Positions 47,849 to 61,236 of a DNA stretch of 64,000 nt are shown here, piece after piece (position 1 is the first letter of the stretch; each line of letters opens with the position of its first letter). The position numbers and the translations under genes were made by a program. The DNA lies in NCBI RefSeq assembly GCF_014652575.1, contig NZ_BMZB01000004.1:124001-188000 (forward strand). The letters run 5' to 3'. The DNA is from Asticcacaulis endophyticus (GTDB lineage Bacteria; Pseudomonadota; Alphaproteobacteria; Caulobacterales; Caulobacteraceae). The notes under the pieces are model-generated. The model was not told the origin of the DNA. It made no database searches and saw nothing but the letters and a program-made list of their open reading frames with translations.

Positions 47849-48265
47849 ATGTCACGTACCTTTTCTATCCTTAAGCCCGACGCCACCCGCCGTAACCTGA
47901 CCGGCAAGATCAACGCCGTCATCGAAGAGGCTGGTCTGCGCATTGTGGCGCAAAAGCGCGTTAAGCTGTCGACGGCTCAGGCTGAAGCTTTTTACGGCGT
48001 GCACAAAGAGCGTCCGTTCTTTGGTGAACTGGTCGGTCAAATGACGGCTGAGCCGGTTGTAGTTCAGGTTCTGGAAGCTGACGACGCTGTGCCGAAGTAC
48101 CGTGAAGTCATGGGCGCCACCAATCCTGAGCAGGCCGCTGAGGGCACGATCCGCAAGCTGTTCGCCCTGTCGATCGGTGAAAACTCGGTCCACGGTTCGG
48201 ATTCGGATGAGAACGCGGCTATTGAGATTGCGCAGTTCTTCACGGACGCTGAAATCGTCGGTTAA
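47849..48265 (+). CDS. ndk: Nucleoside diphosphate kinase
   Basis: Exchanges gamma-phosphates between NTPs and NDPs. Length 138. Begins [19 protein letters not shown]; the phosphorylated His is in [12 protein letters not shown] near residue 117, preceded by [15 protein letters not shown]. The stop is followed after eight bases by a composite palindromic terminator element. Confidence 0.98.
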
Positions 48266-48273
48266 GCAGTTCC

Positions 48274-48389
48274 GGGGTTTGGGGCCAATGGCCTCAAGTC
48301 TTACCCTTCCAAAGAAAAACCCTGCCAGAAACTGGCAGGGTTTTTCTTTGGATAAGAACAAGGTTTGTGGGGCCATGGCCCCACGCCCC
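48274..48389. repeat. Composite palindromic element copy 1 (unit A, terminator, unit B)
   Basis: Unit A (48274-48302) contains a TTGGGGCC-centred dyad; unit B on the opposite strand (48361-48389) contains GTGGGGCCATGGCCCCAC. Between them is the 20-bp terminator hairpin. Unit A and the complement of unit B are themselves related (GGGG, three bases, GGGGCC). The same arrangement, reversed, lies after aspS at 60582-60692: unit A differs at one base in 29. Confidence 0.8.
48309..48351. terminator. Bidirectional terminator between ndk and the S46 peptidase gene
   Basis: A perfect 20-bp stem (48309-48328 with 48332-48351) and a 3-base loop; the GC core CCCTGCCAG is flanked by A-rich and T-rich ends, giving T-tracts on both strands. 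Confidence 0.95.
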
Positions 48390-48393
48390 AGAA

Positions 48394-50454
48394 CTATTTC
48401 CCCGTCAATTCGGCCAATAACGCCTTACGGTCATAAACCGTCTTCAGCGCCTCCGCGATGGCCGAAGACGACACCACGACCGTGCGGTTTAGCGCACTGT
48501 CATAGTAATAGGCACCGCCCAGTGAGTGGATATTGCCATCAAACGCTGCCCCAATCACTTCGCCCTTGGCGTTGATCACCGGAGAGCCGGAGTTGCCGCC
48601 GATGATGTCGTTGGTGGTCACATAGTTGAACACCTTCGATTTATCGACCTTGGGTTCCGCAGTCTTCCATGACGTGGCCAGTTCATACGGTTCAACACCG
48701 GTGGCGCGCTCATATAGACCGGCAATATCGGTAAACGGCGTGATCTTCACCCCGCGATAGTCCCAACCCGTGACCTTGCCGTAGGATAGCCGAAGGGAGA
48801 AGGTTGCGTCCGGATAGGTCGAGGTGGCATAGGCCTTGAACCGGATTTTGGCTATCTTTTCTGACGCAATGCGGGTCGGGCCGGTCACGCGGGCTTCATA
48901 TTGCTTGCGCACGGCCAGAGCCTCGTCGTCGATTTTCAACGCCCATTGGATCATCGGATCGTCGGACGCTTGAACCGCCGCCAAACCGCCATCCATCAGT
49001 TGTTTACGATAGGCGATATCGGTCAGTTTTGTGCGGTCGATCAGGCGTTTGGCTAAAGCCTCTGGCGATTCTTTATCCAGCAGCAGCTTGGTCACGGTTG
49101 AATCCGCCGTCAGATATTCGCGCGCTTTCAACAGGCGGAACTCAAGCTGAATCTGATCTAGCGGTTTTTCGACCGGCGAGGGGTTAAGCAGACGCTTTTC
49201 CAGCGCGGGCAGGCGGGTGTCAGCAAATTCCGGCAGGCGCTCAGTTGACGGCTTGGGCCTTTCCTTGGCCAGACGCACAATGGTGCGCGCGGTCGTGAAC
49301 AGGGACGAACTGGTTGGCGCGGATTCCAGGAAGAAATAAGGGAAATAGAGATCGCCCACATCCTTTTGAGCGGCGGCGATATCAGCCCACGGATCACCAA
49401 AGGTGGCCTTATCTTCGGCGGTCATTCCGGCCTTAAGCGCCGCTTCTTCAGCGCGCTTGGCATCCATGACGGCAGGGTTATTCAGAGCCAGTTGCTGGCC
49501 GTAAAACACCTTAAAACCGTTCTCAAGATTGGTCAGGACATCGGTGCCGATGCGCTTGTTTTCCGGGCTTTGGGCCATGAACTGAATGATCCGGCCGCGC
49601 AGTTCCGAACGCTGAAGCTGCGACACAGGAATCAGCAGATCACGGTTGGTTTCAAGCTGCGCCACCGTCATCAGGCGCTGGGTTGATCCCGGATTGCCGG
49701 CCACGAAGGTGACGTCGTTTTCCTTGGGCGCATTCGGGTTGAATTTCAGGTGGTTCGGGGTTTTGACGACCTTACCGTTTTCATAAACGCGTAGAAATGC
49801 GGCATCGAGGTTATAGCGCGGGAAGTTGAAATTATCCGGATCACCGCCGAAGAAGCCGGACTTATATTCCGGGTAGAACACCAGCCGCACGTCTGAATAG
49901 CGGCGGTATTTATAGAGCTTATATTCGCCGCCCTGATAGAAGCTGATGACCTGACACCGGATAGTCTGATCGGCGCCGCAACCGGCTTTTTCAAGTTCCG
50001 AGGCCTTGGCGTTCATCGCCTTGACGAAGGCTTCTCCGGTCAGGCCTGACGTCGCGGCATTGATATCCTTAGTCACATCGCTGATGCCGGTCAGGATTTC
50101 CGCTGACTGGCCGGGGCAGGTCTTTTCCTCGGTGCGGGCAGCGGTGAAGAAGCCGTTTTGGGTATAGTCATTTTCCGCGGACGACAGATCCTGCGCGCAG
50201 GCGATGACGCAGTGGGCATTGGTCAGAACGAGCCCTTCGGGGGACACGACCGAGGCCGAACAATTGGATAACCGCACGGCGGCTGACTGGATGTGATTCA
50301 GCCACTTGGCGTCGATCTTGGTGCCGTAGGTTTCATTGACCTTAGCGGCGGGGAAGTTATCGAAGGTCCACATACCTTCTTCGGCTTGGGCGGATGTGGC
50401 GGCCATCAGGGTGAAGGCGGTGGTGGCGGCAAGCGCCAGCTTGAATCGGGCCAT
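48394..50454 (-). CDS. S46 family dipeptidyl-peptidase, secreted (DPP7-like)
   Basis: A 686-residue serine exopeptidase that removes N-terminal dipeptides. The signal peptide covers residues 1-24 (TSAQA). Chymotrypsin-type catalytic residues are His in TNAHCV near 79 and Ser in GGNSGSPVINAKGE near 622; an alpha-helical cap lies between. The residue in the AAFDGN loop after the catalytic Ser is Gly, which in characterised enzymes goes with DPP7-type broad hydrophobic preference rather than Arg (acidic-specific DPP11); this is inference from a single position. A Cys pair (SNCSAS, AHCVIAC) is conserved in the family. It probably supports peptide use in the periplasm or outside. Confidence 0.92.
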   Translation of the reverse strand: MARFKLALAATTAFTLMAATSAQAEEGMWTFDNFPAAKVNETYGTKIDAKWLNHIQSAAVRLSNCSASVVSPEGLVLTNAHCVIACAQDLSSAENDYTQNGFFTAARTEEKTCPGQSAEILTGISDVTKDINAATSGLTGEAFVKAMNAKASELEKAGCGADQTIRCQVISFYQGGEYKLYKYRRYSDVRLVFYPEYKSGFFGGDPDNFNFPRYNLDAAFLRVYENGKVVKTPNHLKFNPNAPKENDVTFVAGNPGSTQRLMTVAQLETNRDLLIPVSQLQRSELRGRIIQFMAQSPENKRIGTDVLTNLENGFKVFYGQQLALNNPAVMDAKRAEEAALKAGMTAEDKATFGDPWADIAAAQKDVGDLYFPYFFLESAPTSSSLFTTARTIVRLAKERPKPSTERLPEFADTRLPALEKRLLNPSPVEKPLDQIQLEFRLLKAREYLTADSTVTKLLLDKESPEALAKRLIDRTKLTDIAYRKQLMDGGLAAVQASDDPMIQWALKIDDEALAVRKQYEARVTGPTRIASEKIAKIRFKAYATSTYPDATFSLRLSYGKVTGWDYRGVKITPFTDIAGLYERATGVEPYELATSWKTAEPKVDKSKVFNYVTTNDIIGGNSGSPVINAKGEVIGAAFDGNIHSLGGAYYYDSALNRTVVVSSSAIAEALKTVYDRKALLAELTGK

Positions 50455-58722: not shown

Positions 58723-60576
58723 ATGCACATCTATCGCTCACACACCTGCGGCGCCCTGCGCGCCACCGATGATCAGGCCGTTGTTCGTCTTTCGGGCTGG
58801 GTTCACCGCAAGCGCGATCATGGGGGCTTGCTGTTCATCGATTTGCGCGACCATTACGGCCTGACGCAGTTGGTGTTTGATCCGGCCACACCGGGCTTTG
58901 ATAAGGTCGAACGCGTCCGCGCCGAAAGCGTTATCCGCATCGATGGCAAGGTCGTGAAGCGCACCTCAGATACCATCAATGCCAATCTGCCGACCGGCGA
59001 AGTCGAAGTGCAGGTCACATCGGTTGAAATCCTGAGTGAGGCGGCTGAGTTGCCACTGCCGGTATTTGGTGAGCCGGAATACCCCGAAGAAATCCGCCTC
59101 AAGAACCGCTTCCTCGACCTGCGTCGTGAGACCCTGCATAAGAACATTGTGCTGCGGTCGCGCGTAATCCAGTCGATCCGCACCCGTATGGTCGAGCAGG
59201 GCTTTCTTGAGTACCAGACCCCGATCCTGACGGCCTCATCCCCCGAAGGCGCGCGCGATTTCCTGGTGCCATCGCGTATGCATCCGGGCAAGTTCTACGC
59301 GCTGCCGCAGGCGCCGCAGCAGTTCAAGCAGTTGTTGATGGTGTCGGGCTTTGACCGCTATTTCCAGATTGCGCCGTGCTTCCGCGACGAAGACCTGCGC
59401 GCTGACCGTAGCCTTGAGTTCTACCAACTCGACGTCGAAATGAGCTTTGTAACGCAGGAAGACGTGTTCGCAGCGATTGAGCCGCTGATGCATGGCCTGT
59501 TCACCGAGTTTGGCGAAGGCAAGCGCGTATCGAGCTATCCGTTCCAGCGTATTCCATATCGTGAATCCATTGCCAAATATGGCTCTGATAAGCCTGACTT
59601 GCGCAACCCGATTGAAATGCAGGACGTGTCCGAGCATTTCCGTGGTTCAGGCTTTAAGGTGTTTGCGTCGATCCTTGAGGCCGATGCCAAAAACAAGGTC
59701 TGGGCAATTCCTGCCAAAACCGGCGGGTCGCGTGCTTTCTGCGACCGGATGAACTCATGGGCGCAGGGCGAAGGCCAAAAGGGTTTGGGTTACATTTTCT
59801 GGCGACCGTCAGATTCGATTACAACTACAACTGCCAATCAAGGTAGTAGTATTTCAGTAGATATTGAGTCTACTTCATCTCAGATAGAAGCCTCTGGGCC
59901 GGTTGCCAAGAATATTGGCGATGAACGGACCGAGGCTCTCCGCATCCAACTAGGGCTTGAATCCGGCGACGCCGTGTTCTTCGTAGCCGGTAACCCGGAT
60001 GAGTTCTATAAGTTCGCAGGTTTGGCGCGCACCAAGGTCGGCACCGATCTGGGGCTGGTCGACGAAGATCAGTTCCGCTTCTGCTGGATCGTTGATTTCC
60101 CGATGTTTGAGTGGAACGACGACGAAAAGAAGGTCGATTTCTCGCACAACCCGTTCTCGATGCCGCAGGGCGAGATGGAGGCGTTGCTGACCAAAGACCC
60201 GCTCGATATCCTCGCGTACCAATATGACATCGTCTGCAACGGCTATGAACTGTGCTCCGGCGCGATCCGTAACCACAAGCAGGACATCATGCTCAAGGCG
60301 TTTGAAATCGCGGGCTATGACGAAGCGTTTGTTGAAGCGCAGTTCGGCGGGATGCTCAATGCGTTTAAATATGGCGCACCGCCCCACGGTGGTCTGGCGC
60401 CCGGTATCGACCGTATCGTGATGCTGCTGGCCGGTCAGACGGCCATCCGTGAAATCATTGCCTTCCCGCTGAACCAGCAAGGGCAGGATGTGATGATGTC
60501 GGCCCCTTCGGAAGCGCTTGATAAGCAGTTGAAGGAATTGTCGATCCGGACGGCACTCCCTATTAAAGTCGGCTAA
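58723..60576 (+). CDS. aspS: Aspartyl-tRNA synthetase, with an in-frame Ser/Thr-rich insertion
   Basis: Charges tRNA-Asp (and probably tRNA-Asn). It has the N-terminal OB anticodon-binding domain (residues about 1-110), class II motif 1, motif 2 ([22 protein letters not shown]), the bacterial GAD domain and motif 3 ([16 protein letters not shown]). Length 617. Residues about 365-391 (nt 59815-59895) are a low-complexity Ser/Thr-rich stretch in AT-rich DNA, where other AspRS have a short turn before the conserved GPVAKNIG, so it appears to be an in-frame insertion; the frame and catalytic motifs are intact. A composite palindromic terminator element follows the gene. Confidence 0.96.
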
Positions 60577-60581
60577 ATTAC

Positions 60582-60692
60582 GGGGCGTGGGGTCTGTGAC
60601 CCCACAAACCTGCTATTTCAATAAAAAACCCGGTCATATTGACCGGGTTTTTTATTGAATGAGAAGACTTGGGGCCATTGGCCCCAAACCCC
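60582..60692. repeat. Composite palindromic element copy 2 (unit B, terminator, unit A), inverted
   Basis: Unit B (60582-60611) contains GTGGGGTCTGTGACCCCAC; unit A on the opposite strand (60664-60692) contains TTGGGGCCAATGGCCCCAA when read in reverse. Between lies the 20-bp terminator hairpin at 60617-60659. The order is the reverse complement of the copy after ndk. Where unit B differs from copy 1, both sides of its dyad changed together (C-G to T-A), keeping the pairing. Confidence 0.8.
60617..60659. terminator. Bidirectional terminator downstream of aspS
   Basis: A perfect 20-bp stem (60617-60636 with 60640-60659) and a 3-base loop. The core CCCGGTCA differs from the ndk copy, but the A-run/T-run flanks and the loop size are the same. 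Confidence 0.95.
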
Positions 60693-60697
60693 ATAAC

Positions 60698-61183
60698 TTA
60701 GCAGATTGGAATGCGAAGCCCGCGCGGCAATTGCGTTTCACGATCGCCACACGCGCTGTCAAGCTGACGTTGGGTCAGCCCACGCGCTGACGACATCTCA
60801 GCACCGGAGAAGTTCACCCCCGATAGAGTGGCTCCAGCAAAATTAGCGCCCTCAAGATAGGCCCCCACAAACGTCGCATTGGTCAGATTAGCCTTGGCGA
60901 AACTGACGTTTGAAAACAAAGCGCCAAACCCATTCAGATCACGCAGATCGCCACCCGCAAACGACGTGCGGTTAAATGACCCCAGGCTCAGATCGGCCTG
61001 ACGCAACCGCGCCCCGGCAAAGTTCTTGCTCTTAAGTTTTCGGTTGCTGAAATCGGCCTGAAACAGGTTGCAGCCTGCGCACGATGCTCCGCTTTGGGCT
61101 CTCCCGATCTGACCGGCATTTTGTGCGGCGACGGGGGAAGCGAGTACGGCCATAACTGCCAATACCGGGAACAAGCGTTTCAT
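60698..61183 (-). CDS. Secreted pentapeptide-repeat protein
   Basis: A 161-residue protein. ATG at 61183 is preferred, with GAGGTG seven bases upstream; it gives a signal peptide ending near PVAAQ (residues about 17-21). Residues about 38-125 contain pentapeptide repeats of the A(D/N)LxX type (FQADFSNRKLKSKNFAGARLRQADLSLGSF and following), which form a right-handed quadrilateral beta-helix. A Cys pair near the front (CAGC) and two later Cys (DSACGD, terminal C) could form disulfides. Function unknown; periplasmic location inferred. Confidence 0.85.
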   Translation of the reverse strand: MKRLFPVLAVMAVLASPVAAQNAGQIGRAQSGASCAGCNLFQADFSNRKLKSKNFAGARLRQADLSLGSFNRTSFAGGDLRDLNGFGALFSNVSFAKANLTNATFVGAYLEGANFAGATLSGVNFSGAEMSSARGLTQRQLDSACGDRETQLPRGLRIPIC

Positions 61184-61236
61184 CTTAAGACACCTCAATC
61201 TGTTTGGTCGTGACTAAGCAAGACCGGTGCCAAAAA

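Follow-up and report, generated by a model that had tools for sequence, protein, structure and literature searches.

REP-like dimers with a terminator spacer at the ends of ndk and aspS in Asticcacaulis, and their probable inversion in place

The genes ndk and aspS of Asticcacaulis endophyticus are each followed by a composite palindromic element in which a REP-like unit, a perfect hairpin of 20–21 base pairs (bp) and a second, inverted REP-like unit stand in a row, and the two copies lie in opposite orientations. Both were found in one window, the whole 64,000-nucleotide stretch of DNA analysed here, and were compared with their relatives across the genus. We put at roughly three in four the probability that both sites are copies of an Asticcacaulis REP-like dimer with a terminator as its spacer, that template switching repeatedly inverts and homogenises such elements, and that the opposite orientation of the two copies and the paired changes between them result from this process.

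Table 1 Features at the ndk and aspS sites (window coordinates; the last column gives the domain match and its E-value)
Feature	Position	Strand	Domain
ndk, nucleoside diphosphate kinase	47849..48265	+	PF00334, 2e-50
TTT-type REP-like unit of the ndk copy, GGGG-TTT-hairpin-AAGTCTT, one stem mismatch	48274..48302	+	
Central 21-bp perfect hairpin, 3-nt loop, A-rich/T-rich ends; predicted intrinsic terminator readable on both strands	48308..48352	.	
YGT-type REP-like unit, inverted; minus strand reads GGGG-CGT-hairpin-ACAAACCTT	48360..48389	-	
Peptidase S46 gene, converging; stop 4 nt from the ndk-site element	48394..50454	-	PF10459, 2e-202
aspS, class II (D/K/N) aminoacyl-tRNA synthetase	58723..60576	+	PF00152, 1e-113
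YGT-type unit of the aspS copy	60582..60611	+	
Central 20-bp perfect hairpin, loop TAT; predicted bidirectional intrinsic terminator	60617..60659	.	
TTT-type unit of the aspS copy, inverted	60664..60692	-	
Pentapeptide-repeat protein gene, converging; stop 5 nt from the aspS-site element	60698..61198	-	PF00805, 2.8e-15

The initial annotation had described this build after both genes and in two orientations, and the coordinates, stems and folds bear it out (Table 1). It put the elements 5–8 bases beyond the genes, and the spacing between stop codon and first GGGG is 8 nucleotides (nt) at ndk and 5 nt at aspS. The two TTT-type units agree in 28 of 29 bases, as it had stated; the other pair of units differs by the two-sided dyad change that it reported (GGCC..GGCC to GGTC..GACC); and the central hairpins, with 3-nt loops, do pair perfectly. 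Absent from that account was the position of the right-hand unit, which in each copy stops 4–5 nt short of a converging gene's stop codon, so that each element makes up the entire gap between two convergent genes. On the coding strand both window copies have a GC-rich hairpin followed by a T-run, the pattern of an intrinsic terminator, and on all four strands their RNA folds lie far below those of dinucleotide shuffles (z −9.9 to −10.9; 0 of 200 as low). A covariance model (R1) built from 22 oriented copies recovers each of the two sites with an E-value of about 1e-30; because both belong to the model's own 22-sequence set, independent support comes from the other genomic copies.

Those copies are numerous. 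The search of the genome and its relatives suggested in the initial annotation was made with model R1, which at E ≤ 0.01 matches all 25 Asticcacaulis genomes, with 1 to 100 matches each, usually on both strands of a site. A scan at E ≤ 1e-6, whose tighter filters miss weak matches, hit 15 of the 16 genus genomes searched and none of 103 that represent 21 other genera in the family; the exception among the 16, G075, has one weak match at E ≤ 0.01. When 149 genomes from the family were scanned for the pattern GGGGNNTGGGGN{3,12}CCCCA, it was present in all 23 that belong to the genus (1–49 times each, 480 in total) and 0–3 times in genomes of other genera, where 29 of 126 have 1–3 occurrences and a reversed-pattern control stands at an equal level. 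Within the A. endophyticus genome, GGGGNNTGGGGN{0,30}CCCCA lies at 14 places, as against 1 for the reversed-pattern control. Doublets around a hairpin follow ndk, aspS, one further gene and a gene that we identified by eye and take to be rpoD; the genome also has single units, several of them directly after stop codons. The element therefore belongs to a dispersed family, as had been proposed, with further copies in its own genome and in every genus genome, and descent of the similarity from duplicates of one locus is ruled out, many loci carrying the element. The family has been found so far in a single genus, judging by these searches. Two genomes, G114 and G075, are copy-poor (6 and 1 model matches), which may reflect loss or late spread. 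Against Rfam, 6 loci gave 32 matches at E ≤ 1, of which none reached the gathering score, and among the matches listed for a limited set of search terms in the open-licence literature there was no account of this GGGG-tagged Asticcacaulis family.

Of 120 loci fetched, 13 scoring below 90 against the family were dropped, leaving 107 elements of about 110–135 bp (106 with a stem of at least 10; 105 with a stem of at least 12, used for placement and stop-distance counts). Judged from these sequences, two REP-like units are joined head to head in this family, usually as a heterodimer, around a spacer that is usually a perfect, predicted bidirectional intrinsic terminator. Each unit consists of a GGGG tag, 3 nt, a GGGG..CCCC hairpin and a tail that is AAGTCTT or ACAAACCT; the TTT type reads GGGG-TTT-GGGGCC/GGCCCC-AAGTCTT and the YGT type GGGG-YGT-GGGGTC/GACCCC-ACAAACCT. 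Outer triplets could be read on both sides in 71 of the 107 doublets, giving 48 TTT+YGT, 11 TTT+TTT, 2 YGT+YGT and 10 other combinations. The 22 oriented copies align tag to tag with invariant tags: the four G–C tag pairs are intact in 22 of 22, and pairs outside the tags are often broken. Terminal inverted repeats, a hallmark of MITEs, are thus present in imperfect form (TTAYGGGG..CCCCRTAA). A short palindrome with a tag at one end, repeated in extragenic copies, places the family within the REP superfamily, and two inverted units with their tags outside and a spacer of 20–100 bp give it the form of a REP head-to-head dimer. Neither GTAG nor CGTC is its tag: when the outer 45 nt were searched, CGTC was seen in 2 and GTAG in 1 of the 170 units that could be parsed (44 of 214 could not). 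In the alignment of 22 copies the named stems are paired in 91.6% of cells, which 0 of 500 shuffles equal. Two-sided changes fall at seven pairs (25 of 500 shuffles reach seven) and in 23 cells (0 of 500 reach 23), counts that are inflated by family relatedness and by template switching.

Mapping relative to gene 3′ ends, another check proposed at the outset, ties the elements closely to stop codons. Gene contexts were called with a codon model for which 17 open reading frames of the window served as training set: 68 of 105 elements lie between convergent and 29 between codirectional genes, 1 is divergent and 7 are half-called. Of 172 facing stops, 146 are separated from the tag by 0–8 nt, and in 52 of the 68 convergent pairs this holds for the stops on either side. 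Read from printed sequence, the end of ndk in 25 species carries a doublet in 13, one unit in 3 and a plain terminator in 9; the one-unit species (G141, G080 and G052) have the unit and then a terminator-like stem, incomplete in the G052 print. For aspS in 24 species the counts are 18 doublets, 2 solo units, 3 plain terminators and 1 with neither in the stretch printed. Sites at the two genes without a doublet mostly hold unrelated plain terminators, and reading by eye found no second terminator in the printed ndk gap of doublet-bearing species. Since doublet and plain terminator alternate at these loci across species, the doublet appears to replace the ordinary terminator. Among named sequences, the ndk of Asticcacaulis sp. 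YBE204 is closest to that of the window, at 93%. A second, diverged ndk copy with 83% identity lies at G089:C1:2808401-2808814 (L177), in one genome of the genus.

Sister species hold the copy at the same locus in reverse, private spacer letters included, and the flanks are not reversed. Across 144 orthologous pairs from 24 loci (an earlier set of 114 pairs, with 64 same, 37 inverted and 13 ambiguous, extended by hand), 68 were in the same orientation, 68 inverted and 8 ambiguous; adjacent flanks put through the same test gave 269 same, 8 inverted and 11 ambiguous among 288 windows. At least one inverted pair was found at 9 of the 24 loci and none at 15, and ndk and aspS contribute 55 of the 68 inverted pairs, which are not independent of one another. 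The aspS copies of G060 and G089, for example, score 152 forward and 236 inverted out of a maximum of 258, and 5 of 13 elements are inverted between the sister species G145 and G133. Orientation overall stands at 49 to 56 among 105 elements. On a tree of ndk and part of aspS, with good support for 9 of its 21 inner branches, orientations read by hand from the tails require at least five changes at aspS (18 rows) and at least four at ndk (13 rows). All four combinations of ndk and aspS orientation occur among G060, G149, G068 and G089, which implies more than one flip at one of the loci or at both, unless introgression intervened. The printed sequence downstream of aspS is the same in G000 and G060 (L178, L182) and different in G068, G089 and G149, which suggests local introgression; this common block could account for part of the orientation conflict.

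The initial annotation took the opposite orientations, together with the covariation, as suggesting a mobile or selected element family. On the sequences compared here they are best explained by inversion in place of a resident element rather than by separate insertions, orthologues being reversed where flanks are not. In 16 of the 68 inverted pairs the inverted orthologue outscores every fetched non-orthologue, some by only 1–5 points and with few elements fetched for some genomes (2 for G029, 6 for G137); these pairs are at ndk (some with small margins), at aspS, at one G145/G133 locus and, by 2 points, at one more. The rest of the inverted pairs may represent replacement by an inverted paralogue.

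Because the element is an imperfect palindrome, template switching between its arms during replication would repeatedly invert it in place, flip its loops and homogenise its arms. That this is the enzymatic route we infer from footprints: at aspS the outer triplets are both TTT in G068 and both CGT in G149, giving chimeric arms, and in G089 the outside is inverted with the loop TAT retained. The paired changes had been read in the initial annotation as compensatory; stepwise compensatory selection is not required for them, since a single template switch is able to copy one arm onto the other (PMC8604942, PMC8794818), and homogenised arms are present in G068 and G149. Even a terminator stem that covaries perfectly need not be the outcome of stepwise compensatory selection. 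Both the opposite orientation and the paired changes at ndk and aspS would then be products of template switching. Parts of two published accounts describe arm homogenisation together with spacer or loop inversion in a single template-switch event at inverted repeats (PMC8604942, PMC8794818), and both footprints recur in Asticcacaulis; the cases in those parts come from yeast genes and from short-looped hairpins of rRNA and microRNA, whereas the Asticcacaulis inversions take in a block of about 120 bp.

Whichever side the element is read from, it gives a gene the same 3′ end, namely a stop codon, about 5 nt, the unit hairpin and the terminator hairpin with its U-tract; termination by the element is predicted from these features, as is any 3′-end protection by the unit hairpin. 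Since the element would work alike from both sides, inversion should be nearly neutral and orientation should drift. The family supplies a large number of orthologous palindromes that are functionally symmetric; tallying inversion and arm homogenisation in each species would make it a natural assay for template switching in bacterial replication. A site-specific recombinase might instead flip the element, perhaps even inside a single population (one genome per species was compared), and the element would then be a genuine inverton that includes a terminator. Repeated flips at the same loci in close species, with branch paths of about 0.06–0.11 changes per site, would fit such an enzyme, but the arms are short and imperfect and the apparent exchange points vary among outer tag, inner hairpin and loop, unlike a fixed crossover site, and we consider it very unlikely.

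In a second alternative, a transposase acting in trans copies the whole doublet with its terminator into gene 3′ ends, as for a mobile MITE- or REPIN-like element, and the opposite orientations record independent insertions. Copy number does vary widely among genomes, paralogues reach 0.90 identity, and terminator cores, compared as the 15-mer at the loop, are common to several loci in G145 (4 of 21), G133 (3 of 19) and G014 (7 of 22), which suggests some copying between loci in three of ten genomes. Against this, no core is shared in the other 7 of the 10, A. endophyticus included (4–14 elements each), and locus-private spacers survive the flip at ndk and aspS. The REP-associated tyrosine transposase gene that the initial annotation advised looking for did not turn up here: a search for the RAYT domain PF01797 gave no hit in this genome and hits in 4 of the 25 from the genus, with no link to copy number by eye, and a RAYT-driven REPIN is accordingly rejected for this genome. 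At the single site examined for an empty state, no clean one was seen. In the sister genome the shared left flank is followed by a solo unit, and the shared right flank begins after a further 430 bp or so of other DNA; in G145 itself the left flank and the element are about 640 bp apart, with unshared DNA in between, so that unshared DNA adjoins the element or its remnant in both. The evidence on mobility is mixed, the description of the element as mobile is conjectural, and we judge this alternative unlikely.

The initial annotation also regarded the elements as portable terminators, and a bidirectional intrinsic terminator is indeed predicted in most members: 84 of 106 have a T-run of at least four on either strand. 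A minority differ. Central stems have A..T polarity in 87 of the 106, intermediate polarity in 2 and the reverse, T..A, in 16 (a tally of 17 before L335 was recognised as a mis-called stem, with locus counts unchanged). None of the 16 has a T-run, and so they lack the signature of an intrinsic terminator; all come from G145, G133, G014 and G109, and none from A. endophyticus. Counted by locus, on an incomplete ortholog grouping, convergent sites have 30 A..T and 2 T..A stems and codirectional sites 9 A..T and 6 T..A (Fisher p 0.0086), a distribution that suggests retention of terminator stems where stopping is useful and of non-terminating stems within transcripts. The 2 convergent T..A loci, at which one would expect a terminator, and the 9 codirectional A..T loci speak against a strict rule, and distance to the next possible start codon fails to separate the classes, being 16–24 nt in six T..A cases, 96–179 nt in the other five codirectional ones and 14–21 nt at several A..T loci. 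The reversed-polarity stems, with a pyrimidine-rich left arm, are at L324/L343, L326/L345/L370, L368/L377, L365, L375 and L321/L346, mostly codirectional, and at the convergent loci L323/L344 and L328/L369/L376. Comparing terminating with non-terminating forms would provide a direct test of REP dimers as gene-end modules.

That polarity follows gene context, and that stops abut the element on both sides, would also be expected if convergent genes simply needed two-sided terminators and selection alone produced the palindrome and its compensatory changes. Both units are present, however, where the next gene is codirectional, as after the presumed rpoD; from locus to locus the tags and tails hardly differ, and they are confined to the genus; and orthologues are inverted as a block. 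Functional convergence of this kind is highly improbable. A further proposal, which we hold to be quite doubtful, would treat the family as a genus-wide set of gene-end cassettes in two forms, A..T terminating and T..A non-terminating, that are fitted to neighbouring genes according to whether these converge or lie on one transcript and are spread and flipped by a host process without a REP transposase, orientation being a record of template switching.

Among known systems, the family is best placed with the REP head-to-head dimers, by sequence resemblance and with a presumed function, as a variant that has GGGG for its tag and a terminator for its spacer. In the part of the survey by Di Nocera (2013; PMC3733652) used here, GTAG and CGTC REPs are palindromes of 20–40 bp, one end of which bears an unpaired tag; their dimers are mostly head-to-head with the tag outside, often heterodimers, have spacers of 20–100 bp that may be structured, and lie between convergent open reading frames within 20 bp of both 3′ ends. 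According to the survey, the CGTC type is the predominant one among alphaproteobacteria and shows no link with transposase genes. The Asticcacaulis elements share the tagged palindromes, the head-to-head heterodimers, the structured spacers and the convergent 3′-end placement; they differ in the GGGG tag and in a spacer that is usually a perfect bidirectional terminator, and that part of the survey does not mention the in-place inversion seen in Asticcacaulis. The tag, the terminator spacer and recurrent inversion in place set this family apart.

Other small repeats resemble the family in part, as far as the excerpted descriptions go. REPINs (Bertels and Rainey 2011; PMC3116915) are likewise hairpins of inverted REP doublets with spacers less conserved than the REPs, and their solo units are regarded as remnants; they go with RAYT transposases, of which none was found in this Asticcacaulis genome. 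The pneumococcal SPRITE (Croucher 2011; PMC3049150) is also a dispersed terminator-like repeat enriched near convergent 3′ ends, for which no target duplication could be established, but it is AT-rich, belongs to another phylum and is described, in that part, without REP units. Correia elements are small repeats reported to invert (cited in the MITE review PMC10969869); according to the same review they contain promoters, and most are located upstream of genes.

In the portion of their description used here, CIRs come close in architecture, being intergenic elements of about 110 bp with two hairpin arms and a linker in alphaproteobacteria, but they carry a conserved GANTC. This motif, the CcrM site, is in 2 of the 107 Asticcacaulis elements (L273-L392), against a dinucleotide-shuffle mean of 23.5 (range 14–35), and identity with CIRs is rejected. 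An attC-like site seems unlikely, as the end motifs of attC sites point the opposite way to those of this element. GANTC density is 0.14 per kb in the elements and 1.46 in their flanks. Some unit hairpin loops contain extra hairpin-forming inserts (L379 and L380 in G109, L359 in G014 and L303 in A. endophyticus); the insert is nearly identical at the two G109 loci, and is perhaps a second small repeat nested in the first.
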